From Bacteroidetes bacterium 47-18 (GTDB lineage: Bacteria > Bacteroidota > Bacteroidia > Chitinophagales > Chitinophagaceae), in assembly GCA_001897155.1 (NCBI GenBank), contig MKSF01000014.1, forward strand, positions 124,001 to 188,000: DNA of 64,000 nt, in the 5' to 3' direction. Below, one piece after another: positions 7,650 to 20,091 of this stretch (positions within the stretch are counted from its first letter, which is position 1; each line of letters begins with the position of its first letter). The translations under genes and the position numbers were made by a program. The notes beneath the pieces were generated by a model. It had not been told where the DNA came from, made no database searches, and saw only the letters and a list, made by a program, of their open reading frames with translations.

Positions 7650-9314
7650 TTAGAATTTAAAACGTAAACCACCAATAATATTAAAACCGTACACATTGTA
7701 CAGGTTGAAACGTTCGTATTGTTTGTTCAATATATTATTAAGCTGTAAAAATAAAGATAATCGCGGAATTATCTGGTACTCTCCCTGTAAACTTAGGTCG
7801 GTGATGGGGAGCAGGCGTTCCGTGGCACCGGTTTCCGTCAGGTAGAATATCCGGTCCCAGTATTCCAGCCTGGCGGCAAGATATAAGCCTTTGACCGGCC
7901 TGGTAAATACTTCTCCTGCCAGCTTCAGCTGCGGCTCATGGTAGATCTTATTCATCGTCTCCTTATAGGTAAAGCTGGTCCATGCGCCTGAACCCGTTAT
8001 CCCGAAGGTTTCATTGACCTGGTACTTGAAATAGCCGTCAAAGGTGAGCGCCTGCACTTTTCCTTCATAAGCTATGCGGAAGTACCTGCCGTCCGGTGTC
8101 CTGGAATAGTCATTGATAAATACGGGGAGATTGTTCCATTGGTTCCAGGCAAGAGAGCCTCCCATCGACATATATTTACCCAGTTTGCTGTCAAAGCCGC
8201 CGAATACTTTCAGTTGCCTGGACTGCTGTACCAGGTAATTATTGTACATGAAAGGATTTTTAGATGAAAGCTGCTCAAAGGTATTCTGGATCACTTCGCC
8301 TTTAAAGCCGCCATTCAATGTCAGGGAATTGGTTATCAGCGGTACCCGAAGGGTGATGTCGGGCAGCAGGTAAAACCGGTTGTCCATTCCCAGGGACGGG
8401 CGGATGCCGATATGGAGATCGCTTTTCAGCACGCTGATATCCACGTAAGGGCGGGCGGACACCAGGTGATTGCCTACAGCGGTATGGTTGACCACATAGC
8501 TGTAAAAATTGCCGTTGAGGTCCAGTCCTATCTTTAAGGTGCTGTCTAACTGGTAAGACAGGGGAATGCTGAGGTCCAGCCCGGTTTCGGAAGCTGTCCA
8601 CCTGTCGGCGTAGTAGCTGGCGCCCAGGCGGGGCTTATAGAAAAAGCGGCTGCCATTGGAATTCTCCATAGCTACCTGTCCCCTGATGCCCCAGTACACC
8701 TGTCTTACGCTGTCCAGGGCAGGATAAGGGTACGTTGTCTGGTTCATGCCGTAATAGCTGGTACCTCTCCTGGTGAACTGCACGTTGCCTTCCAGGTCAT
8801 GATGGTCCAGCTGGTAGTAGCCCACACCGGAAAATTCGGACAGGGAGCTTTGCCTGTTCGCGATGCCGCCTTTCTGGGAGAGGTGCCTGCCGTGCAGCAC
8901 GGACTGGAATTTTTCTGTCTGGAGCGCGCTGATGCCCGCATCCAGGAGGAAGGAGGAGTAATTGCCCATTCCCGCTTTGATATAATTTTCGAAATTAGGC
9001 TGCTGGTTGTCCAGTCCCAGCGCCAGCGGGCGGATAGGCACCGCCTGGTAGGTGTAGGTCAGCTTCTGCTCCGGGACCTCATACTGGTATACAGGATTGA
9101 TGGTGTCGAACCTGGGTGCATCCGGCACAAGGCGTTCCTTGGTCTTTTTCTGCACTTCCGGTACATATATCTGATATACGTTGAACTCCTGTGTACGGAT
9201 CACTGTGTCTGTGCCTCTTTGCGTGCGCTGCTGCGACCAGCCGTTATGGGTCCAGGCGGTGGTGAGCAGGAACATAGCGGCAGGTATATATTTTGCTTTG
9301 GTATATAAGCTCAT
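7650..9314 (-). CDS. outer-membrane beta-barrel protein, TonB-receptor-like barrel without plug
   Basis: A 554-residue exported protein. The ATG at 9314 gives a signal peptide (MSLYTKAKYIPAAMFLLTTAW, cleavage near GWSQ). A TTG three codons upstream is possible but less likely. The mature part has many alternating amphipathic strands and ends with NNILNKQYERFNLYNVYGFNIIGGLRFKF-like strands and a terminal Phe, the pattern of an outer-membrane barrel and of TonB-dependent receptor C-termini. No plug domain or CarboxypepD-like N-domain is seen and the protein is too short for a full receptor. Its place between a TPR protein and a SPOR protein suggests an envelope structural or assembly role rather than nutrient uptake; that is inference. 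Confidence 0.8.
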   Translation of the reverse strand: MSLYTKAKYIPAAMFLLTTAWTHNGWSQQRTQRGTDTVIRTQEFNVYQIYVPEVQKKTKERLVPDAPRFDTINPVYQYEVPEQKLTYTYQAVPIRPLALGLDNQQPNFENYIKAGMGNYSSFLLDAGISALQTEKFQSVLHGRHLSQKGGIANRQSSLSEFSGVGYYQLDHHDLEGNVQFTRRGTSYYGMNQTTYPYPALDSVRQVYWGIRGQVAMENSNGSRFFYKPRLGASYYADRWTASETGLDLSIPLSYQLDSTLKIGLDLNGNFYSYVVNHTAVGNHLVSARPYVDISVLKSDLHIGIRPSLGMDNRFYLLPDITLRVPLITNSLTLNGGFKGEVIQNTFEQLSSKNPFMYNNYLVQQSRQLKVFGGFDSKLGKYMSMGGSLAWNQWNNLPVFINDYSRTPDGRYFRIAYEGKVQALTFDGYFKYQVNETFGITGSGAWTSFTYKETMNKIYHEPQLKLAGEVFTRPVKGLYLAARLEYWDRIFYLTETGATERLLPITDLSLQGEYQIIPRLSLFLQLNNILNKQYERFNLYNVYGFNIIGGLRFKF

Positions 9315-9362
9315 TGAAAACAATATTTAATAGCTGTACTGATAAAAAATTACGGAAGGGGT

Positions 9363-12300
9363 CTATTCTACTTTGGAGTGCTGCAACTGGGCTGCCTTTA
9401 CACGATCGTACAGATCGTTGATTTCTGCAGTGAGGCTGGCATCCTTTACCCCTTTTTTCAATTCTTCCACGATAGCATTGGCTTCAAAATAGTCTTTCTG
9501 CTCCAGCATGATGGTTGCGATCAGCATAAAGTTCTTAGCTACCCAGTATTGATATTGATTCGATGTTTTGACCGCTTTTTCAGCTGCCTTTACAGCGTCA
9601 TCCGGTTTGCCCTGCTCTTTCAGTATGTAAGCGCTCCAGTACCGCGATTCCGCGGTCAGGATGCCGAGGTTCTGGGTGGATACCTTGTTCAGGTGGGTCA
9701 GCGCCTCGTTCCAGTCCTTATTCTGAATGGCGTTCCGTGCCTTTATAAGGTTGGCAAGGCCGATATCTGATTTGTCCACACCTTCTGTTTTCAGCAGGGT
9801 ATTGGCGTATTCTTCCGCGGTGGTCCTGTTGCCCAGTTCATAATGGGCGGTCATCAGGCCTATGTAAGCCTCTTTCTGCAATGCCGCATTCTGCGTATGC
9901 TGAAGCAGGTAGTCGTAGTAATTTTTAGTAGCCTCATATTGTTTAGCCTGCAAGGAGAGCATCCCGGCCTTCTGGCTGGCATCTTCCGCATACGCGTTCC
10001 AGTCGCCTTTCAGCACTTCGTTGTAATCTTCTAGCGCTTTATCTGCCTGCTGCAGCATTCTCCTGGCTTCTCCCCTGTAGTAAAGCGCCGGTATCGCGTA
10101 CTGGCTGCTGCTGTAATCCCTGGTGAACTGGGAGACCTTATCTACTACCACGTTCCATTGCCTGTTCTCGAAGGCTGTTTCAATAATGTCGAAATAAGCC
10201 TGTTGCTTGGTCAGCTCATCCGGTTCGGGCAGGTCCTGCTGGCGGGCGTATTGTATGTAGGCGTCAAAATCGCTGTCCTGTGTGTACAGGATGCGCAGGG
10301 CTTCCATAGCGCTGGCCCTGTCGGCAGAGGAAGGGTATTTTTCAATATATTCCTTATAGGTGGCTTTGGCCAGCTCCCGCTGGTCCATTGACTGGTACGC
10401 AAAGGCCAGCTTATAGGTAGCGCTGGCTTTGACCTGGGGATTCCTGGTAGTGCTCAGGATGCTTTTCAGGCTTGCTACCGCTTCGGAAAAGGCATTCCGC
10501 TGCAGTTGCATAGAGGCCAGCTCTACCTGAGCGGCTTCCCTGTAGGTGCTGCCGGTATTATTGTTGTTCAGTGACTGCAGCAGCTTCTGCTTTTCGGGGT
10601 CATTGTCATTCAGACCCGCTATCAGCGCGCGCTGGAAAATGGCGTAGTCTTTTTCTGTAGTGTTCTTTTTGATGGCCTGGTCATACAGCTGGTCGGCTGC
10701 CGTATAATCCTTTCTCATAAAAGCCGCGTCTGCGGACCGCAGCACTGCCAGTACGGAGGCTGTCGCATCCTGCCCGGCATCCGCTTTCTGAGCGGCGGAA
10801 AAGGCTGTCTGCGCATTGGAATAATCTCCCAGCTCCATCTGGGCATATCCCATGATCATCTGGGCATTCTGCCTGCTGGCCTTCGCGGACAATTTAGGAA
10901 TGGCGTGGCTGTAGGCATTGTAAAGATTCAGGAAATCCCGCGCATTGTCCACTGCATTTTTATAATCTCCCCTGTTATAATCGAGTTCGGCTTTCCAGAA
11001 TTTGGCTATCGCCTCGTATTCGCCGTTCACCGGGTATTTCAGGGAATTGTTCAGCATCTGGTAGGCGCCTTCGTAATCTTTGTCGATCAGCAGTTGCAAG
11101 CCCCTGCCGACAGCCACCTTCTGGTAAATGGATTTCATGAAATTATCCTGCAGGTTGGAGCTGCTGATGATATTGAAAGCCTCTTCATAGTTGCTGCTCT
11201 TAAGCAGCAGGCCGGATAAAAGGCTTTTGGCTTCATTGGCGTGACGCCCGTCCGGGTAGGCCTTGATATATTCATCGAATTTCCGGCTGGCCACTATTTC
11301 GTTACCCTGCTCATAGGACAGCTTGGCATACAGGAAAGTAGCGGCTTCCCTGATGGAGAGGTTGTAGCTCATATCAGAAGCCAGGCCGAAAGCGTTCCTG
11401 GCTCCTTTTTTGTCATTGACGCGGAGGTAGCAGTCGCCCAGGAGGTACATCGCCGTCTGCCCCAGGGAATCCTGCGATACGCTGAGCTCCTTGAAGGCGG
11501 TAATGGCCTCATTCCAGTCCTTCAGCTTATAATAGGTGTACCCGATCTCGTAATACACTTCCTTCCTGAGCTTGTCACTGTTGTTGAGCACATACCGGAA
11601 GTCGGGCAGCGCTTCTGCATATTTACCTTCTTCAAAGCTGACCTGTGCTCGGAGCAGGTGCATCTCCTTTTTATAATGGAAATCATTACCGGCAGCGAGG
11701 TAGCTTCCGGCAAGGGATCTCAGTTGCGCCTTATTACCGAGGAAATAGTGTATCTCCGCCTGGTAATAGGGTACGACCTCCTTGTATTCTGCTTCCCCGG
11801 CGATGGCCTCAAAGCTTTTTAAGGCGCTTTTATAGTCCTTATCGTTATAGGCGAGCAGCCCGTAATAGTAATTACCGGGCACATAGTATTTGTGGTTGTG
11901 TATATCTTTGATAGCCGCAAACAGGTTCTTGGATTCCGTCAGCCGGTTGTTATAGAAGTAGCAGTAGGCCAGCTCAAATTTGGCATCTGAAATCTCCGCA
12001 TTGGTGAGATTATCCATACCGGCCTTTTCATAATAAGCGGCGGCATTGATATAGTCGTTCCTGTGAAAATAGAGCTGCGCCAGGGCAAAGGATACCCGCT
12101 GGTAATACACCGGGTCTGAGCATTTGTCAATATACTTCCTCGCCAGCTCTTCCGATCCGAAAAGATTGCCTTTTACATTGCTCAGCACATAATAGTAATA
12201 AGCCTGCCGGTAGTCGAAATTGGATTCCAGGCTTTCATCGTGCTGCGTGGGGAGAAAATTGGAATTTAAAAAGCCGTTCAGGGAATTGGTAGCCTGAATA

Positions 12301-12452
12301 TATAATCCGGCATTGAACTGCTCAATGCCGTGCTGTAATAAATTATTTTCATAGCTGTTATTTACAGGCTGCTGTGCTGCCAGGGGTTGCAGTGCTGTGA
12401 AAGCGAGCGAGCTTATAAGTAATGGCCGGAATATTCTTTTATGAATAATCAT
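9363..12452 (-). CDS. large periplasmic tetratricopeptide-repeat protein
   Basis: A 1029-residue protein with a signal peptide (FRPLLISSLAFTALQPLAAQQ), made almost wholly of TPR-like helical hairpins. Recurrent features are A-x-Y-x-x-G and Y-E-x-A motifs, such as QLYFHRNDYINAAAYYEKAG, YTYYKLKDWNEAITAFKEL and YKLAFAYQSMDQRELAKATY. Proteins of this kind act as scaffolds for envelope complexes. It opens a leftward operon with a barrel protein (39 bases downstream) and the HU-CCDC81/SPOR protein, so the three may form one trans-envelope assembly. The start at 12452 immediately precedes the basic n-region of the signal peptide. Confidence 0.88.
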   Translation of the reverse strand: MIIHKRIFRPLLISSLAFTALQPLAAQQPVNNSYENNLLQHGIEQFNAGLYIQATNSLNGFLNSNFLPTQHDESLESNFDYRQAYYYYVLSNVKGNLFGSEELARKYIDKCSDPVYYQRVSFALAQLYFHRNDYINAAAYYEKAGMDNLTNAEISDAKFELAYCYFYNNRLTESKNLFAAIKDIHNHKYYVPGNYYYGLLAYNDKDYKSALKSFEAIAGEAEYKEVVPYYQAEIHYFLGNKAQLRSLAGSYLAAGNDFHYKKEMHLLRAQVSFEEGKYAEALPDFRYVLNNSDKLRKEVYYEIGYTYYKLKDWNEAITAFKELSVSQDSLGQTAMYLLGDCYLRVNDKKGARNAFGLASDMSYNLSIREAATFLYAKLSYEQGNEIVASRKFDEYIKAYPDGRHANEAKSLLSGLLLKSSNYEEAFNIISSSNLQDNFMKSIYQKVAVGRGLQLLIDKDYEGAYQMLNNSLKYPVNGEYEAIAKFWKAELDYNRGDYKNAVDNARDFLNLYNAYSHAIPKLSAKASRQNAQMIMGYAQMELGDYSNAQTAFSAAQKADAGQDATASVLAVLRSADAAFMRKDYTAADQLYDQAIKKNTTEKDYAIFQRALIAGLNDNDPEKQKLLQSLNNNNTGSTYREAAQVELASMQLQRNAFSEAVASLKSILSTTRNPQVKASATYKLAFAYQSMDQRELAKATYKEYIEKYPSSADRASAMEALRILYTQDSDFDAYIQYARQQDLPEPDELTKQQAYFDIIETAFENRQWNVVVDKVSQFTRDYSSSQYAIPALYYRGEARRMLQQADKALEDYNEVLKGDWNAYAEDASQKAGMLSLQAKQYEATKNYYDYLLQHTQNAALQKEAYIGLMTAHYELGNRTTAEEYANTLLKTEGVDKSDIGLANLIKARNAIQNKDWNEALTHLNKVSTQNLGILTAESRYWSAYILKEQGKPDDAVKAAEKAVKTSNQYQYWVAKNFMLIATIMLEQKDYFEANAIVEELKKGVKDASLTAEINDLYDRVKAAQLQHSKVE

Positions 12453-12520
12453 TGTTGTGAAACTATTTTATTTGTATGGGTTAGGTATTAACAGCTGCAG
12501 GGAAGCCACTCTACTTCAGG

Positions 12521-12528
12521 CAAAGATA
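12521..12528 (-). promoter_or_regulatory. TPR operon promoter -7 element
   Basis: CAAAGATA reads TATCTTTG on the minus strand, an exact TAnnTTTG match 68 bases before the TPR gene start. No TTG at ideal -33 spacing is evident. Confidence 0.4.
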
Positions 12529-12591
12529 GGATTTAGATATTTCAATATATAAACAACGGAGTGTTTTAGTAAAAATTATCAAATTATTAAG

Positions 12592-13662
12592 CTATGGCAT
12601 CCTGAATGCCGGATTGGCCACGAAATTGTCATCATTAAGGGTGTTGAGAAAGCTCAGCAGGTCGTCCTTTTCACGGTCGCTCAGCGGAATGCCATGGGCC
12701 AGTTGCGGGTCCAGGTTGGGGGTTTGCTGCACGTGCTTCCTGTAATGCTCCAGCACCACGCTGACCGTTTCATAGCGGCCGTCATGCATAAAGGGCGATG
12801 TGTACTTCAGGTTCCGGAGCGTGGGCACCCGGAACTTATAGTAGGAAGCGCTGTCCAGGTGGGTGATGACGCCCCTGCCGAGATCAATTGCGCCTTTGGT
12901 ATTGGGAAGGAGCGCCAGGCCGTTATTCCGGAAGCTGTGATCCGTAAATAAAGGTTCCGTATGGCAGGAGTTGCAATGCTGCTTAAACAGCATATAGCCC
13001 CGCTCCTCATTCTGCGAGAACTGGTAGCCGGCTACGCCCTGCTGTATCTTATCATACTTGGAGCCGGCAGATATCATAAAGCACATATACTGCGCAAGCG
13101 CTTTCATAATGCCTTCCGTATCCGCCTGGTCCTTATTGAACACCTTTTTAAAGGCTTCCCGGTAAGCTGCCACCTCGTTCACGGCCTTTACCGCCTGTTC
13201 CAGCGTATTGCCCATTTCGTCCGGGTGGGTGATGGGATTGATGGGCTGTACTTCTATATGATTGGAGCCGCCATCCCAGAAGAAAGAGGTGTTCCACATC
13301 ATGTTGAAGATAGGCTGGGAGTTCCGGATGCCGAGGTTGCCCCTGATGCCGTGGCTCAGGTCATGACCTCTCTGCGCGAAAGCTGCTTCCGGTAAATGGC
13401 ACGAGCTGCAGCTAACGGTATTATTGGCAGATAATATCCTGTCAAAAAAAAGCTTCCTGCCCAGCTCAAATCCTTCTTTGGTCAGCGGATTATTCTCAAA
13501 ATTATATACAGGAGTAGGGAAGTGGCCGGGATAACTGATGGTCCATGCCGTGTCCTGCCCTGGCGGAACCAGGGGAACGGTATCTTTCCTGCAGCTTGAG
13601 ATCACCATAAAGCAGGTTACGGAAGCTGTACACAGTATCTTGAGAAGTCGGCTGCTTGTCAT
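12592..13662 (-). CDS. di-haem cytochrome c peroxidase / MauG-family lipoprotein (MbnH-like candidate)
   Basis: A 356-residue protein with a lipoprotein signal peptide (lipobox VISSC, Cys24). There are two c-type haem sites, CSSCH (residues 85-89) and CNSCH (230-234), in the spacing of the CcpA/MauG di-haem family. Segments such as ELGRKLFFDRILSANNTVSCSSCH and the C-terminal YTSPFMHDGRYETVSVVLEHY are family hallmarks. It probably acts in the periplasm or on a membrane surface, using peroxide either to detoxify it or to oxidise a protein substrate. It starts 7 bases after an MbnP-like gene. This is the arrangement of MbnP/MbnH pairs, in which MbnH converts a Trp of MbnP to kynurenine. Peroxidase activity is the safe call; the MbnH role is inferred from context. 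Confidence 0.9.
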   Translation of the reverse strand: MTSSRLLKILCTASVTCFMVISSCRKDTVPLVPPGQDTAWTISYPGHFPTPVYNFENNPLTKEGFELGRKLFFDRILSANNTVSCSSCHLPEAAFAQRGHDLSHGIRGNLGIRNSQPIFNMMWNTSFFWDGGSNHIEVQPINPITHPDEMGNTLEQAVKAVNEVAAYREAFKKVFNKDQADTEGIMKALAQYMCFMISAGSKYDKIQQGVAGYQFSQNEERGYMLFKQHCNSCHTEPLFTDHSFRNNGLALLPNTKGAIDLGRGVITHLDSASYYKFRVPTLRNLKYTSPFMHDGRYETVSVVLEHYRKHVQQTPNLDPQLAHGIPLSDREKDDLLSFLNTLNDDNFVANPAFRMP

Positions 13663-13669
13663 CGTCAGG

Positions 13670-14461
13670 TTATTGTATCTCGTATTTTACAAACATTTTA
13701 GCGTAATTGTCCGCAAGCTTCTTGGAGGACGGCCCGATAGTTACCACGGAGTTTACTTCGGGTATGGATATCGGGTGTACGGCGTTAAACCATTTCAGGG
13801 CATCTGCGGTTAGCTGCAGATCAATATTTTTATCCGTGGTAGAGAAAGGCTCATCCAGCCGGATGCTTACCGGCCTGACCGCATTATATTCACCGGCATA
13901 GCCGCCTATATGATAGAAGAAGGTGCCATAGGGCGCAAGAGGGCTGGTGCCTTCAAAAGTGGCCATTACATAACCTGTATTCCAGTCCCAGAAAAGTCCC
14001 CAGAAAGGATCCAGCGCCCCGGTCTGTATGCCGCTGACATTCCTGGCACTGTCCACTCCTATAGCGAAGATAAGCTCCCGGTAGGTGCCTTTCATCGTTT
14101 TGAAGCTGGCGTTATAGATGCCCTGTGTGGCATCCACTATATGATAAGCCGGGTATAAGGACAGGGTATCGCCGGTAGTGCTTATCAGCCTGGGATTGGA
14201 AATATAATATACGTATCTTTTGATCTGGAACGGCTCTCCCAGGTAGTTATAATAGGTTGCCCCGGAATCCAGCGAGGTCTTGAAGATCATTTCCCGGTCG
14301 CCCACCATATTCTTAATGGACAGGTTGAGCAGGTGCCCGTCATACTGTATGGAATCCTCAGGTGCTGGCCTGTCGGTTATGGGATCCACAGGCTTCGGCT
14401 TTTTACATGCCGTTGCCGCAAACAGCAATAACAAAAGGATGTGTATATAATGCCGGCGCAT
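13670..14461 (-). CDS. MbnP-like copper-binding lipoprotein candidate
   Basis: A 263-residue lipoprotein (lipobox ATAC, Cys19). The core DPFWGLFWDWNTGYVMATFEG region (residues 151-171, Trp154, Trp158 and Trp160) matches the MbnP family signature. So do HLLNLSIKNMVGDREM near the N-terminus and YISNPRLISTTGD. MbnP proteins bind copper after an MbnH-type di-haem enzyme oxidises one Trp. Here the di-haem gene follows by 7 bases, in the same operon. No methanobactin precursor (mbnA) or mbnBC is visible in the window, so this would be a stand-alone pair, as found in many non-methanotrophs. The family assignment is by motif memory, not alignment. Confidence 0.75.
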   Translation of the reverse strand: MRRHYIHILLLLLFAATACKKPKPVDPITDRPAPEDSIQYDGHLLNLSIKNMVGDREMIFKTSLDSGATYYNYLGEPFQIKRYVYYISNPRLISTTGDTLSLYPAYHIVDATQGIYNASFKTMKGTYRELIFAIGVDSARNVSGIQTGALDPFWGLFWDWNTGYVMATFEGTSPLAPYGTFFYHIGGYAGEYNAVRPVSIRLDEPFSTTDKNIDLQLTADALKWFNAVHPISIPEVNSVVTIGPSSKKLADNYAKMFVKYEIQ

Positions 14462-14573
14462 AGATCTTATATTTAATGAAAACTGAATAAACTATTAATA
14501 TTCCTGGAAGAAGGTTTTTTGTATGTAAAATTGGTTTAAATTTACAGGTTTTCTCTCAATATATGAGGCTGAT

Positions 14574-15296
14574 ATGATTTTTTTCAATAAATACTTTGCG
14601 GCTGTCTGGCTGAGCCTGTGCGTATGGGCGGCGAATGCCCAGAGCACGCTTCCCGACCTGACCATCACATCTGATAACGGCTATAATATCGTCAGCTGGC
14701 AGAATCCCTATAAAAGCGGTGTAAAGGCCATTATTGTGGAGCGGTCTTCCGACAGTAATTTCAATTTTTCCGCAATCGGTATCGTTAAGGACTTTAAGAA
14801 CACCATCCAGTCGTTCGTGGATGTGACGCCGCTCGCAGGCGCCAACTGGTACCGTGTCAATGTGATCTTCGAATCGGATGTGGAATGGCGCAGCAATACG
14901 GCCAAGATGATACTGGACAGCATGGATATCGTGAACAGGAAGCAGGTGACCTCGCTGGAATCACTACAGAAATCCGTGAATGAAACGATCAATACCAAGG
15001 GTATCAAGGAGGACATTGTAAAGGAAACGGTCAGGCAGATCGAGATACCCAAGTCCAGGTATATCTTTACCAACCCTTTCAGCGGGAATATCAATATCGA
15101 ATTGCCCGATACGCGGGTATATAACTATTATATCACTTTTTATACACAGAATGATAAGAAGGTGTTTGAAATACCCCGGATTCATGAAGATGAGATCATA
15201 CTGGATAAGCGAAACTTTCAAAGCACCGGCACCTATAAATTCATTATCCTGAGGGATGATAAGGAGTTTGAGAAGGGATTCATTACCGTTTATTAA
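14574..15296 (+). CDS. secreted protein with fibronectin-like fold, function unknown
   Basis: A 240-residue protein with a signal peptide (FFNKYFAAVWLSLCVWAANAQS, cleavage after NAQ). Residues 28-105 resemble a fibronectin type III or similar beta-sandwich domain: ITSDNGYNIVSWQNPYKSGVKAIIVERSSD, then WYRVNVIFESD. A short helical linker and a second beta-rich part follow (YIFTNPFSGNINIEL), ending in FIILRDDKEFEKGFITVY, which looks like a T9SS-like terminal sheet. It is a single gene bounded by a strong hairpin. I do not recognise a named family. Confidence 0.75.
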   Translation: MIFFNKYFAAVWLSLCVWAANAQSTLPDLTITSDNGYNIVSWQNPYKSGVKAIIVERSSDSNFNFSAIGIVKDFKNTIQSFVDVTPLAGANWYRVNVIFESDVEWRSNTAKMILDSMDIVNRKQVTSLESLQKSVNETINTKGIKEDIVKETVRQIEIPKSRYIFTNPFSGNINIELPDTRVYNYYITFYTQNDKKVFEIPRIHEDEIILDKRNFQSTGTYKFIILRDDKEFEKGFITVY

Positions 15297-15329
15297 GCGG
15301 TACGGGAACAGTAGTAAGCTTAAAAGGAG

Positions 15330-15367
15330 AACGGGACTGCGGCCATCATTCAGGTCACAGTCCCGTT
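15330..15367. terminator. intrinsic-type hairpin between convergent genes
   Basis: Ten-base stem (15330-15339 with 15358-15367), core ACGGGACTG/CAGTCCCGT. The loop has GGCC/AGGTC bases that could extend it imperfectly. It sits between the secreted FN3-like gene and the convergent small membrane protein gene. Confidence 0.7.
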
Positions 15368-15436
15368 CGGTTGTATAAAAATCTATTTTATTTTTTAATC
15401 GTTGTACTATACAAAGCTGCAATAAGCAAGTGAGGG

Positions 15437-15901
15437 CTATTGGGTATTGGCTTTCACGAAAGATCTTATTTTCCGGATATAGTCGAAATAGCCTGTCTGC
15501 ATCTTAAACCAGAAAACAACAAAGATCAGGATGCTTACTCCGCCCATTACCATAGGTATCTGGTACTGTCCCGGCTGAAAGATCAGGAAGCCCAGGCCGA
15601 TGATAAAGATAAAGGCACAGAAGATAACCAGTAAATAAGGGCCCCCGATATCAATACGCCTGGGCTTGGATCTTATTATGATAGTTGTATTCTGTGCCTG
15701 GTTCTGTAATTCCAAATGCGTTATGGGCAGGATCTTCAGCTCGGTTGAATTTTCTGCGTGGGGAATGACCTTCAGCTTGTCATTTTTTTCCATCACTTCA
15801 AAATCCATTTGATGAATCTGGATCCGTTTCCCCAGGAGCTTATCCCTGACAGCATCCTTTGAGAGGGACGACCTGAATTTGTAAGTACGATTAAAAATCA
15901 T
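15437..15901 (-). CDS. small two-helix membrane protein, unknown
   Basis: 154 residues. An N-terminal soluble part of about 80 residues begins NRTYKFRSSLSKDAVRDKLLGKRIQIHQMDFEV. Two adjacent membrane helices follow (YLLVIFCAFIFIIGLGFLIF and PMVMGGVSILIFVVFWF), then a basic tail. It has no signal peptide, so the soluble head should be cytosolic. I do not recognise the family. It is a single gene, convergent with the FN3-like gene and downstream of chaN on the same strand, separated by 80 bases of AT-rich sequence. Confidence 0.7.
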   Translation of the reverse strand: MIFNRTYKFRSSLSKDAVRDKLLGKRIQIHQMDFEVMEKNDKLKVIPHAENSTELKILPITHLELQNQAQNTTIIIRSKPRRIDIGGPYLLVIFCAFIFIIGLGFLIFQPGQYQIPMVMGGVSILIFVVFWFKMQTGYFDYIRKIRSFVKANTQ

Positions 15902-15981
15902 AATAGATATATTTTAGTTACATAAAAAAATTACGCTACTGCAATATATCTTTTTTTTTACAATTTTCAAATAATTTAATA

Positions 15982-16878
15982 TTAATTTTTGCCGGCGCCG
16001 GCAGCAGCGGTTTCCGCGGCACGCGTCACAATGACATAATCGCCCAGTTGCTTCCAGTCGGCCCAGTCGGTCTGCTGCACATCTGCCTGGTAAAAGCTTG
16101 AAATGACCACTACATCCAGATCGTACTCCCTTCGCAGGCGGAAGACGGTGCCCTCGCCGTAATCGCTGTGGAACCGGCCGCACAGGTGGTAAATGATACC
16201 GTTCCGGTATTTCCCGGACTTGTTATATATGCTGTGCGCCATGGTGGCGTCCCATACGTTCTGGCTCTGGTAGAGGTTGAACCCGGGGATGCTGTGCCCG
16301 CCCATGGCTTCCAGGAACCTGTCGTAATAATTGCCTTTCAAGGTATCTACCGGCAGGGGAGGAAGGTAATTTTTCCTGGCCTCTTTGCTTAAAAGCTCCA
16401 GGGACCCCAGGCCCCTGGTCGTTACCATATTGGTATAGCGTGAGGGTGTATTGGCTGCAAGTACGCTGATCCCGTGATGCTTGGCATACTCCACCATAGG
16501 TCTGTAATCGGCATAATTGCCCCAGGCCCTGGCCTCTTTGATGAAGTTCTTCTCGCTGATCAGACCCTGGAGGTATTCATCCACGATATACTGCACGTCT
16601 TTCTGGAACATTTCCATTGACAGCAGGACCTTTTTGCTGCCCCATTCCTGTTGCAGCAATTGCAGGAGCTGGTATTGCAGCGCGTGCGCGATGCTGTCAT
16701 CGTGCTGCTCCCCGAAGACCAGCACCGTACCGGCCGGAACTGCGGCGGTGATCTCCCTGAGGGTAACCTCCCGTTGCTGCTTTACGTCATATATTTTATA
16801 GGATATTGCCTCCTGCTGTGCAGCAGAGATGCATACGGTGCCCAGTAATAAGAGCCAGGATATCAGCAGTGTTCTCAT
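15982..16878 (-). CDS. ChaN family haem/iron-associated exported protein
   Basis: A 298-residue exported protein with the ChaN/haem-binding-uptake (Tiki-like) fold. Motifs are VFGEQHDD (residues 54-61), SMEMFQKDVQ and RPMVEYAKHHGISVLAANTP. A late YHLCGRFHSDYGEGTVFRLR completes the EReX-like pattern. The N-terminus is a signal peptide (MRTLLISWLLLLGTVCISAAQ); Cys16 is not in a convincing lipobox. In Campylobacter, ChaN binds haem dimers under iron regulation; here no TonB receptor is adjacent. Some Tiki-like members are metalloproteases, so haem transport is only one possibility. A -7 element lies 27 bases upstream of the start. Confidence 0.85.
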   Translation of the reverse strand: MRTLLISWLLLLGTVCISAAQQEAISYKIYDVKQQREVTLREITAAVPAGTVLVFGEQHDDSIAHALQYQLLQLLQQEWGSKKVLLSMEMFQKDVQYIVDEYLQGLISEKNFIKEARAWGNYADYRPMVEYAKHHGISVLAANTPSRYTNMVTTRGLGSLELLSKEARKNYLPPLPVDTLKGNYYDRFLEAMGGHSIPGFNLYQSQNVWDATMAHSIYNKSGKYRNGIIYHLCGRFHSDYGEGTVFRLRREYDLDVVVISSFYQADVQQTDWADWKQLGDYVIVTRAAETAAAGAGKN

Positions 16879-16904
16879 ATGCTTATAAATGTATATACAG
16901 GGTG

Positions 16905-16912
16905 CAAAAGTA
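16905..16912 (-). promoter_or_regulatory. chaN-like gene promoter -7 element
   Basis: CAAAAGTA reads TACTTTTG on the minus strand, an exact TAnnTTTG match upstream of the start at 16878. No clear -33 element is seen. Confidence 0.4.
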
Positions 16913-17078
16913 ACGCCTCGCGGCGAGAGACTGTGAAAAATCAGATAATTTTTACAAAGTCCCCGGGGAATACCTAAAAAAAATCTAATTTAGTTACCTG
17001 TTTTGAACTTTAGATGCAAAGTTTTGTGTTACTTTGTATTTCAAAGTGAAATTATTATTAAGATAATATCAGTTGTAT

Positions 17079-19010
17079 ATGGATGAAATTGTAGCCGGCC
17101 CTTTGCTCAGCACGATCAATGAACCTGCCGACCTGAGAAAGTTAGACCCTGTGCAGTTGCAGCAGGTATGTAATGAGCTGCGCCAGTTTATTGTGGACTG
17201 TGTCAGCATCAACGGCGGGCACTTCGGCGCAAGCCTGGGTGTGGTGGAGCTTACGGTGGCGCTGCATTACGCTATGCATACGCCTTATGACCAGCTCGTA
17301 TGGGACGTGGGCCACCAGGCTTACGGTCACAAGATACTCACAGGCAGAAGGCAGGTATTCCATACCAACAGGAAATACGGCGGTATCAGCGGGTTCCCCA
17401 AGCGCGATGAAAGCGAATATGATACTTTCGGGGTAGGGCACTCATCCACTTCCATCTCTGCCGCCCTGGGCATGGCCATTGCCTCCAAGCTCAAAGGAGA
17501 AACGGACCGCCAGCATATCGCGGTGATAGGGGATGGCGCTATGACAGCGGGACTGCCGTTTGAAGCTATGAACCATGCCGGTGTGGCCAATGCCAATATA
17601 CTGGTGATCCTCAACGATAACAATATGAGCATCGACCCTAACGTGGGCGCGCTCAATCAATATCTTACCGATATCACTACTTCCACGGCCTATAATAAGC
17701 TGCGGGATGACGTATGGAACTTCATCGGTAAGCTGCCGTATGCCGATCTGCAGCAGAAATTCGCCTCCAAGTTCGAAGCGAGGCTGAAAAAGGCCATCAA
17801 TAAATCCAGCAATCTTTTTGAAGCGCTGGGATTCCGGTACTTCGGACCCGTAGACGGTCATAATGTGCTGAAGCTGGCGGAGACCATTAAGGACCTCCGT
17901 AATATTTCCGGCCCCAAGCTGCTGCACGTCAAAACGGTGAAAGGAAAAGGCTATAAGCTGGCGGAAGAGGACCAGACCCTCTGGCATGCGCCGGGCCTGT
18001 TCGACAAGGTCACAGGACAACTGAACAAAGTGTCTTTTGCCGTTCCCCAGCCTCCCAAATACCAGGATGTGTTCGGTCATACCATCATAGAGCTTGCGAA
18101 GGCGAATGATAAGATCATGGGCATCACTCCCGCTATGCCTTCGGGATCGTCTTTGAAATATATGATGCAGGAAATGCCGGACAGGGCGCTGGACGTAGGC
18201 ATAGCAGAGCAGCATGCGGTAACCGTAAGCGCTGGGCTGGCTACGCAGGGAATGAAGGTCTTCTGCAATATCTACAGCTCCTTTATGCAGCGCGCCTATG
18301 ATATGGTGATCCACGATGTGGCCATCCAGGGCCTGCCTGTGATATTCTGCCTGGACAGGGCAGGTATGGTAGGCGATGACGGGGCGACCCACCAGGGTGC
18401 TTATGATATTGCATATATGCGCTGCATACCTCATATGGTGATCAGCGCTCCTATGAATGAGCAGGAGCTGCGAAACCTGATGTACACGGCCCAGCTGGAT
18501 ACCAATACCAGTCCTTTCTGTATCCGTTACCCGAGAGGACAGGGTGTGATGCCGGAATGGCGGACGCCGTTCGAGGAGATCACTATAGGTACCGGTCGCC
18601 AGATCAGGAACGGGAAGGATATTGCCATACTGACCATCGGTCATCCGGGCAATTTTGCAGTGGAAGCCACGGCCCAGCTCGAAGCGCAGGGTATCAGTGT
18701 AGCGCATTATGATATGCGCTTTGCAAAGCCCATAGATGAAAATATATTGCATCATGTAGGCAAGACCTTCAGGAAAGTGATCACGGTAGAGGATGGTACC
18801 GTTGTCGGTGGTATGGGAAGCGCCGTGCTGGAATTCTTCAATGCGCATGGCTATAAGCCGGATGTAAAGATACTGGGCATTCCCGATGTGTTCATTGAGC
18901 ATGGCACGCAAAAGGAACAATACAGGGATTGCGGCTATGATAAGGACGCGATTGTGCAGGCGGCCAGGGCTATGATGACCATAGCTGAAGGAAGCCGCGT
19001 ATTCGCGTAG
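17079..19010 (+). CDS. dxs: 1-deoxy-D-xylulose-5-phosphate synthase
   Basis: Dxs condenses pyruvate and glyceraldehyde 3-phosphate, the entry step of the MEP pathway, using thiamine diphosphate. The 643-residue product shows INGGHFGASLGVVELTVALHY near residue 45, VWDVGHQAYGHKILTGRR, and the ThDP site GDGAMTAGLPFEAMN with NDNNMSID. The second-half motif DVGIAEQHAVT contains the catalytic Glu. The length is typical. A TTG two codons upstream is possible, but ATG 17079 is simpler. It is a single gene ending at a strong terminator. With ispD in the same window it indicates isoprenoid synthesis by the MEP route. Confidence 0.97.
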   Translation: MDEIVAGPLLSTINEPADLRKLDPVQLQQVCNELRQFIVDCVSINGGHFGASLGVVELTVALHYAMHTPYDQLVWDVGHQAYGHKILTGRRQVFHTNRKYGGISGFPKRDESEYDTFGVGHSSTSISAALGMAIASKLKGETDRQHIAVIGDGAMTAGLPFEAMNHAGVANANILVILNDNNMSIDPNVGALNQYLTDITTSTAYNKLRDDVWNFIGKLPYADLQQKFASKFEARLKKAINKSSNLFEALGFRYFGPVDGHNVLKLAETIKDLRNISGPKLLHVKTVKGKGYKLAEEDQTLWHAPGLFDKVTGQLNKVSFAVPQPPKYQDVFGHTIIELAKANDKIMGITPAMPSGSSLKYMMQEMPDRALDVGIAEQHAVTVSAGLATQGMKVFCNIYSSFMQRAYDMVIHDVAIQGLPVIFCLDRAGMVGDDGATHQGAYDIAYMRCIPHMVISAPMNEQELRNLMYTAQLDTNTSPFCIRYPRGQGVMPEWRTPFEEITIGTGRQIRNGKDIAILTIGHPGNFAVEATAQLEAQGISVAHYDMRFAKPIDENILHHVGKTFRKVITVEDGTVVGGMGSAVLEFFNAHGYKPDVKILGIPDVFIEHGTQKEQYRDCGYDKDAIVQAARAMMTIAEGSRVFA

Positions 19011-19033
19011 ATATGCAGGTAAAATAATTATAC

Positions 19034-19067
19034 CCAGAAAAGAGGCTTTTTAAAGCCTCTTTTCTGG
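19034..19067 (+). terminator. dxs intrinsic terminator
   Basis: Perfect 16-bp stem (19034-19049 with 19052-19067) whose outer part is AAAAGAGGC/GCCTCTTTT. The T-rich arm lies on the plus strand, 24 bases after the dxs stop. Confidence 0.85.
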
Positions 19068-19132
19068 TCTTATGAAGATTTTCGTGCTGCATTGAACCCG
19101 TCGTGTCATATGGACCCTATCATGTTATATTG

Positions 19133-19203
19133 AGCCTGTTGAAATGCGATTTATAATGGTTTTAGCAGGGCTTCGACGGGGCTCAGCCTGACAGTTGAGG
19201 GAT
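19133..19203 (-). repeat. single inverse copy of the 122-bp inverted-repeat unit
   Basis: Bases 19153-19203 are the reverse complement of the core unit seen at about 62577-62627 and later copies, with AGCAGGGCTTCGACGGGG and CTCAGCCTGACAGTTGAGGG in order. The upstream bases TGAGCCTGTTGAAATG are a diverged form of the second arm (TGAGCTTGTCGAAGGG). This is therefore a complete hairpin-forming unit outside the tandem array. Confidence 0.85.
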
Positions 19204-19440
19204 TTTGTTACAGGGAGCGTGTCAGGTCACATTGAGCTTGTCAGTGTCACATTGAACCTGTCGAAATGTGATATCCATATGGCTTAACAATCGCGGCAAC
19301 ATTCCGGCTGAGCTTTATAGGGCAGGATTGTTGACTTTTTACACAGCCACTTTTTTGATGTCCTGCTGGACGCTCACCCTGCTTTCCCGGCAGCTCCGGG
19401 GCGCGGGCTGCCGTTCCCGATATTGTTGTAACTTTACGCC

Positions 19441-20091
19441 ATGAAAAAAACCATATTGCTATTCGTTGCCATCCTGGCGGTTACCGGCACGCTGAAGGCG
19501 CAGCAGCAATTCGACCGGGAAGAGCTCCGCATTATACAGCATCCTTCCGAAAAGGGGTTGCTGAGAGTATTGCAGACCACAGTGAAGGAAGACAGCCTGA
19601 AGCTCAGGAGGATTGCCCAACTGCTGGATGTAAAGGAACCGAAGCTACAGGCATTGTTAGACCTGCTGCTGCATACGGTGCAGGACCCGGAAAATGAAGG
19701 CGTCGGTATAGCCGCGCCGCAGGTAGGCGTCAATAAGCAGTTGTTCCTGGTACAGCGGTTCGATAAGGAAGGCACACCTTTCGAAGCGATCCTGAACCCC
19801 ACCATATTATGGACTTCCAACCTCATACAGGCAGGACGGGAGGGATGCCTGTCCATCCCCGACACGATGGGCATAGTGAACCGCTTCTACAGTATCCGGG
19901 TACAATACCAGACACCCCGGGGCGAATGGAATACGGAGATACTGGAAGGCTTTACGGCCGTTATTTTCCAGCATGAATACGATCACCTTATGGGAAAGCT
20001 GTTCATAGACAGGCTGGCAGAACAGCAGCAGCAGGAATATATTACCCCGCAGCATAATTTTTATTACTTATCAGGCAAGAATACACGATAG
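19441..20091 (+). CDS. peptide deformylase homologue with signal peptide
   Basis: 216 residues with all three peptide deformylase metal/active-site motifs: GVGIAAPQ (87-94), EGCLS (134-138, metal ligand Cys136) and HEYDH (178-182). These features predict hydrolysis of N-formyl-Met peptides. Unusually, the N-terminus is a convincing Sec signal peptide (MKKTILLFVAILAVTGTLKA, cleavage before QQQ). About 40 extra residues (RVLQTTVKEDSLKLRRIAQLLDVKEP) lie between it and the catalytic domain. The normal enzyme is cytosolic, so this looks like an exported paralogue, and the genome should have another def. The HD-domain gene starts on the next base after its stop, so the two are cotranscribed. Confidence 0.88.
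   Translation: MKKTILLFVAILAVTGTLKAQQQFDREELRIIQHPSEKGLLRVLQTTVKEDSLKLRRIAQLLDVKEPKLQALLDLLLHTVQDPENEGVGIAAPQVGVNKQLFLVQRFDKEGTPFEAILNPTILWTSNLIQAGREGCLSIPDTMGIVNRFYSIRVQYQTPRGEWNTEILEGFTAVIFQHEYDHLMGKLFIDRLAEQQQQEYITPQHNFYYLSGKNTR

Follow-up and report, generated by a model that had tools for sequence, protein, structure and literature searches.

The window (the whole analysed stretch of 64,000 nucleotides) contains, at 12592-14461 on the minus strand, a gene pair of the MbnP/MbnH kind whose di-haem enzyme probably acts on a tryptophan of its partner lipoprotein. Because a methionine kept by most relatives has been lost from this lipoprotein (Leu156), its tryptophan may be oxidised without copper being held in the usual way. 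A canonical pair is encoded elsewhere in the genome, and its co-occurrence with this natural Met-to-Leu variant separates two questions on the family, namely what the enzyme needs for tryptophan oxidation and what the protein needs for holding copper.

The pair consisted of two minus-strand open reading frames, 13670-14461 (263 aa) and 12592-13662 (356 aa), separated by 7 bp as the initial annotation had recorded, and flanked by a divergent gene 112 bp upstream and a TPR gene 139 bp downstream. This spacing suggests that the two genes are co-transcribed. The predicted structures of both proteins began with an N-terminal helix, and a lipobox-like Cys was read by eye near both N-termini (Cys19 of the lipoprotein, 14405-14407, with Cys in 98 of 125 aligned MbnPs; Cys24 of the enzyme). 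The unit is probably bicistronic and of MbnP/MbnH type, with both proteins exported and lipid-anchored. No RNA family was detected in 9000-20000. A sigma-70-type promoter scan yielded 9 sites compared with 4.0 in shuffles; since Bacteroidota promoters differ from the sigma-70 type, this result was set aside.

The lipoprotein scored 130.2 bits against the Pfam MbnP family (PF20243; gathering cut-off 27). Its AlphaFold2 model, built with 54 homologues from a pattern-selected MbnP set (mean pLDDT 89.8), was nearest among solved structures to MbnP of M. trichosporium (7l6g; Z 16.8, 206 aligned residues, rmsd 2.9), with the second-best match at Z 5.7 only, and six chains of 7l6g ranked first in Foldseek. 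Both profile and fold therefore bear out its earlier identification as an MbnP. The enzyme matched PF03150 (CCP_MauG) with 173.5 bits, and its model (pLDDT 87.8) was nearest to 6e1c, described as a MauG-like copper-homeostasis protein and corresponding to M. trichosporium MbnH (Z 33.8), followed by MacA (28.6), the N. europaea peroxidase (28.3) and MauG (28.2). This fold match, together with the adjoining MbnP gene, supports placing it as an MbnH relative. The two proteins thus independently matched both halves of one characterised pair. The family search gave a divided answer, however, as the NCBIfam scores lay far below their cut-offs, with 19.8 bits for the lipoprotein against TIGR04052 (MbnP_like_WxW, equivalog; cut-off 140) and 197.7 bits for the enzyme against TIGR04039 (MbnH; cut-off 362.85), its best NCBIfam model. 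The pair is accordingly of the MbnP/MbnH kind, yet neither protein is an NCBI equivalog. No close orthologue of the lipoprotein was found, identity reaching at most 45%, and a search for it on plasmids gave no match.

Residue conservation was assessed in 125 distinct Bacteroidota MbnPs, obtained from 129 after removal of duplicates and including both MbnPs of the genome itself; Met counts were taken without the pattern-selected loci, whose search pattern contains the Met. The family core M-x-W-x-W...H corresponds to positions 156, 158, 160 and 184 in window numbering, and all four residues were present in 99 of the 125 proteins. The window lipoprotein kept the WxW motif as Trp158-Asp-Trp160 (13988-13990 and 13982-13984; Trp in 121/125 and 111/125, respectively), Trp158 being the expected oxidation site, as well as His184 (13910-13912; His in 122/125), a candidate metal ligand. 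Trp154, Trp158 and Trp160 had been numbered correctly as a Trp-rich signature, of which Trp158-x-Trp160 stood; Trp154 did not, Trp being outside the nine commonest residues at that position in the 125 sequences.

Two residues before the WxW, the conserved Met was replaced by Leu156 (13994-13996), encoded by CTT and so at least two base changes away from ATG. Met occupied this position in 106 of the 125 proteins and Leu in three, including the window protein. Met was also present in all 28 top-ranked relatives of the lipoprotein (the newly obtained loci among 115 genomes with a match, one match per genome being read), in 7l6g, and in seven of eight plasmid-borne MbnPs from other phyla (8 of 11 records, the other three coming from the same species). 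The exception, a Trichormus MbnP, carried Leu despite scoring 320.7 bits to TIGR04052, which argues for caution about the ligand role of Met156. TIGR04052 proteins possess a second conserved Met within a CMS motif, a rival candidate ligand, found in five of the eight plasmid-borne MbnPs (CMG in the Pseudoalteromonas protein) but in none of the 125 Bacteroidota MbnPs. Two Deinococcus plasmid MbnPs lacked CMS, kept M-x-W-x-W and a His, and adjoined copper genes; Met156 and His184 were therefore taken as the shared candidate ligands and, from the sequences compared, are the likeliest copper ligands of the family. The earlier proposal of copper binding by the lipoprotein is weakened to that extent: with the conserved Met gone and the checked residues on which oxidation seems to depend kept, its copper half is less safe than in relatives.

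The closest characterised counterpart is the M. trichosporium system (7l6g, 6e1c), in which mbnP and mbnH are presumably adjacent, an arrangement also seen in Methylocystis plasmids. A 2021 PNAS study of M. trichosporium MbnP reportedly found the first Trp of the WxW converted to kynurenine, with His, Met and solvent at the copper. The window pair resembled this system in the fold of each partner, the WxW and the conserved His. It differed in having lipoprotein-type N-termini and no MbnB-family gene in its genome, and its lipoprotein in the absence of a CMS region and the Leu in place of the conserved Met.

In the proposed mechanism, the enzyme would combine a Tyr-His low-spin haem with a peroxide-binding haem, and an oxidant such as peroxide would bring it to a high-valent state. 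Electrons would then be withdrawn from Trp158 of the lipoprotein, so that kynurenine, or an oxidised Trp related to it, would arise next to His184. The oxidised Trp would complete, in canonical relatives, a Cu(I) site to which His and Met also contribute; in the window lipoprotein, the change of Met156 to Leu would most likely leave this site weakened, re-ligated or absent, while the canonical pair of the same genome would keep the usual one. We consider it probable that the enzyme acts on Trp158 of its partner, and within that reading the chances that the copper outcome is altered or lost, as against normal, would be about even.

Part of the same reading, and one to which we give an appreciable though minority share, is that the pair is an ordinary canonical one, with Trp158 converted to kynurenine, Cu(I) held through His184 and another residue, and Leu156 neutral. 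Met166, which is available in the window lipoprotein, could be such a residue, and the Trichormus protein, a strong TIGR04052 member, likewise carries Leu; Met is nevertheless found at position 166 in only 17 of the 125 MbnPs, and the retention of Met156 in most of the family and in every top-ranked relative speaks against a neutral substitution. A rather doubtful proposal, which we offer tentatively, is that an MbnH-type maturase and its substrate have been recruited to another role, in a genome that also has the canonical pair, giving an oxidised-Trp group (kynurenine, or a product in which the cluster of Trp154, Trp158 and Trp160 takes part) that has ceased to serve a Cu(I) site.

For the enzyme, the earlier reading of two haems was borne out by two CxxCH motifs, C85SSCH (13396-13410) and C230NSCH (12961-12975); across the di-haem alignment, the His of both motifs and the first Cys of the former were conserved. 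The inter-haem Trp position, MauG Trp93, was occupied by Trp129 (13276-13278), a Trp being shared by 91 of the 120 paired enzymes as well as by 6e1c, 1iqc and 3o5c, and Gln139 and Glu149 of the di-haem alignment were also retained. At the sixth-ligand position, aligned with a Tyr in 6e1c and a Met in 3o5c, the enzyme had Tyr307 (12742-12744), and Tyr was likewise found in 111 of the 120 paired enzymes and in 15 of the 16 unpaired ones. The distal-loop His present in 1iqc and 3o5c was replaced by Ile106, and this His was found in none of the 120 paired enzymes versus four of the 16 unpaired ones. Pattern-selected loci were excluded from this alignment, and for part of the enzymes the label paired or unpaired was based on no more than about 1.5 kb of flanking sequence per side. 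In bacterial peroxidases the haem is ligated by Met-His, and in MauG and BthA by Tyr-His, according to portions of PMC6405878. Tyr307 thus speaks against a Met-ligated peroxidase and is no proof of MbnH chemistry, since it is shared by most unpaired enzymes. The idea that a Tyr sixth ligand establishes MauG/MbnH chemistry was accordingly dropped, unpaired enzymes of the genome itself and of the family having the same residue.

Among 296 Bacteroidota genomes at least 90% complete, the window's own included, PF20243 was found in 78, about a quarter. In the 92 Bacteroidota loci fetched from this survey, where MbnP frames were chosen by HMM, a same-strand di-haem frame lay downstream of 95 of 96 MbnPs, within 300 bp in 93 of them; two MbnPs with a more distant di-haem frame were tandem copies beside a paired MbnP, and one locus (L124) had none. 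Five survey places lay outside the fetched set; G220:C23 and G192:C31 were partial matches above the cut-off, and the other three scored below it. The pairing of MbnP with a di-haem gene is therefore not due to chance. It was also seen for 29 of 30 MbnPs in a relatives set, which overlaps in genomes with the survey, and for 75 of 82 in the pattern-selected set, the remaining seven having no downstream di-haem gene. An enzyme was found within about 1.5 kb downstream in only 20 of the 28 top-ranked relatives and was absent in eight, which indicates looser adjacency in the group to which the window lipoprotein belongs.

MbnP distances and enzyme distances were correlated over 118 pairs (Mantel r 0.80, with 0 of 999 permutations as high), a value inflated by shared species history. 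The enzyme tree comprised 88 rows, made up of 55 of the 120 paired enzymes (45 of them random draws), 16 unpaired, nine other and eight reference sequences. There the window enzyme grouped with three others, all four being paired (support 95), and this group was nested in a wider one of 41 enzymes, of which 38 were paired and three labelled unpaired (support 99). In the MbnP tree, the window lipoprotein stood among Chitinophagaceae pairs without high support, and the two trees differed in the nearest relatives that they gave for the window pair. The end branches of both genes were longer than the median (1.32 vs 0.56 for MbnP, 0.83 vs 0.46 for the enzyme), neither being flagged as long by the tree program; such branches fit a changed function or a relaxed constraint.

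A classical peroxide-detoxifying CcpA was ruled out by Tyr307 in place of Met, Ile106 in place of the distal-loop His, the tree, and MbnH as the nearest fold. The initial annotation had named two contrary outcomes, a lipoprotein placed outside MbnP and an enzyme grouping only with such peroxidases; instead, the lipoprotein lay inside the Pfam family and the enzyme had neither the axial Met nor the distal-loop His that were seen in the classical peroxidases used for comparison. A broader version of the idea, in which the di-haem protein only detoxifies peroxide and the lipoprotein serves as its electron-donating or anchoring partner, draws on superfamily membership, on the Tyr haem-ligand pattern common to unpaired members of the family and on those MbnPs that have no adjacent enzyme. 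It is nonetheless unlikely, given the frequent pairing with MbnP, the closeness of the model to MbnH and the same two substitutions at the haem.

The canonical pair was located on another contig (MbnP at L003 2431-3240, di-haem gene at 1366-2415, 15 bp apart). Its MbnP kept the Met, and both of its proteins were likewise below the NCBIfam cut-offs (41.2 bits for TIGR04052 and 196.5 bits for TIGR04039). This pair adjoined a small Cys-rich frame and a CDICGC frame, neither of which neighboured the window pair; relatives of these two frames were found near 38 and 32 MbnPs, respectively, compared with 163 for the clustered di-haem neighbour. The canonical enzyme (L003 1366-2415, minus strand) had a Leu at the inter-haem Trp position. 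As the two pairs of the genome sat in separate regions of the trees, the window pair is no recent copy of the canonical one. A decaying duplicate without present function, which the long end branches, the lost Met and the canonical pair elsewhere in the genome might suggest, is hence quite improbable, both frames being intact, Trp158, Trp160, His184 and the checked residues of the enzyme being kept, and the two pairs being placed separately in the trees.

Action of an MbnH-type enzyme on Trp158 of its partner is the most parsimonious reading. None of the neighbours of the window pair was recognised as a copper gene, so the copper connection proposed earlier received no backing from this side. 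The six nearest other genes of the window were not found beside other pairs, save for ChaN-like matches in two loci. Single-query phmmer searches of the 92 survey and 80 pattern-selected loci, of low sensitivity, returned a PCuAC-like match in one locus and TonB receptor-like matches in 10, and the same searches gave no CopC and, with partial queries, no SCO or CopD. A ChaN-type haem-binding protein (15982-16878, minus strand; PF04187, 176 bits) is encoded a short distance upstream of the pair.

No MbnB-family gene (PF05114) was found in the genome, which is 98.79% complete, in support of the stand-alone status first assigned to the pair, outside any methanobactin operon. Given this absence and the occurrence of MbnP in about a quarter of Bacteroidota genomes, the MbnP/di-haem pair seems to have a role independent of methanobactin.

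Pairs of this kind are already known: portions of PMC3621798 describe stand-alone MbnP/MbnH pairs (TIGR04039/TIGR04052, GenProp0940) far beyond methanobactin producers. Like the window pair, they have a di-haem enzyme adjoining MbnP and no methanobactin operon; those of Paracoccus and two Deinococcus lie near copper genes, whereas those of Pseudoalteromonas and the window do not. Among the open-licence papers searched, none was seen to describe a Leu variant occurring together with a canonical paralogue.

In CorA/CorB and MopE/SACCP of methanotrophs, as presented in sections of PMC3912023, a Trp at the Cu(I) site is oxidised to give kynurenine and a di-haem protein is co-transcribed, the role of the CorB-type enzyme in oxidising the CorA Trp being a proposal. 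The same sections report that a CorB-like knock-out of Methylomicrobium alcaliphilum grew faster and suggest non-enzymatic Trp oxidation there, which by analogy would count against action of the window enzyme on Trp158. By spacing, Trp160 takes the place of His64 in the CorA motif Kyn62-x-His64, so the CorA/MopE motif as given there does not match the Trp-x-Trp of the window. The CorA and MopE structures were absent from the profile and fold match lists of the lipoprotein, an absence that proves nothing. MauG and BthA share with the window enzyme the Tyr-His six-coordinate haem pattern and differ in their partners, MauG modifying two Trp of methylamine dehydrogenase (portions of PMC6405878); the model of the window enzyme was closer to 6e1c than to MauG.

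Several variations were observed at other loci. MbnPs without a nearby di-haem gene were found at L164, L170, L174, L180 and L210, in addition to the eight loci of top-ranked relatives, and all eight genomes of the latter carried PF03150 genes elsewhere. Those of L170, L174 and L180 were clustered with a small Cys-rich frame, a CD(V/A)CGxSG frame and two small lipoprotein-like frames. L193 and L209 each had an MbnP/di-haem pair with a further MbnP lying divergently to it, an arrangement in which a single enzyme might act for two partners. An expansion was seen in G571 (genus g246; related genomes alike), with seven MbnPs in 3.4 Mb and 10 PF03150 matches, two of them second pieces of the same frames. 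At L065, L101, L107, L112 and L117, two di-haem genes came after MbnP, and the inter-haem Trp position of the first was occupied by Arg; of three MbnPs scanned for a T9SS sorting tail, those of L065 and L101 were above the cut-off and that of L117 below. Phe instead of Tyr at the position of the sixth ligand occurred in the paired enzymes of L079, L085, L089-L092, L096 and L097, which partner WEW-type MbnPs except at L097.

On Deinococcus plasmids (L305, L306), MbnP and a MauG-type gene were clustered with copper resistance genes. In five of five plasmid records (L269-L273), the two-CxxCH gene following MbnP bore the annotation 'methanobactin export MATE transporter MbnM'; these genes were MbnH-like, and both of those scored exceeded the TIGR04039 cut-off.
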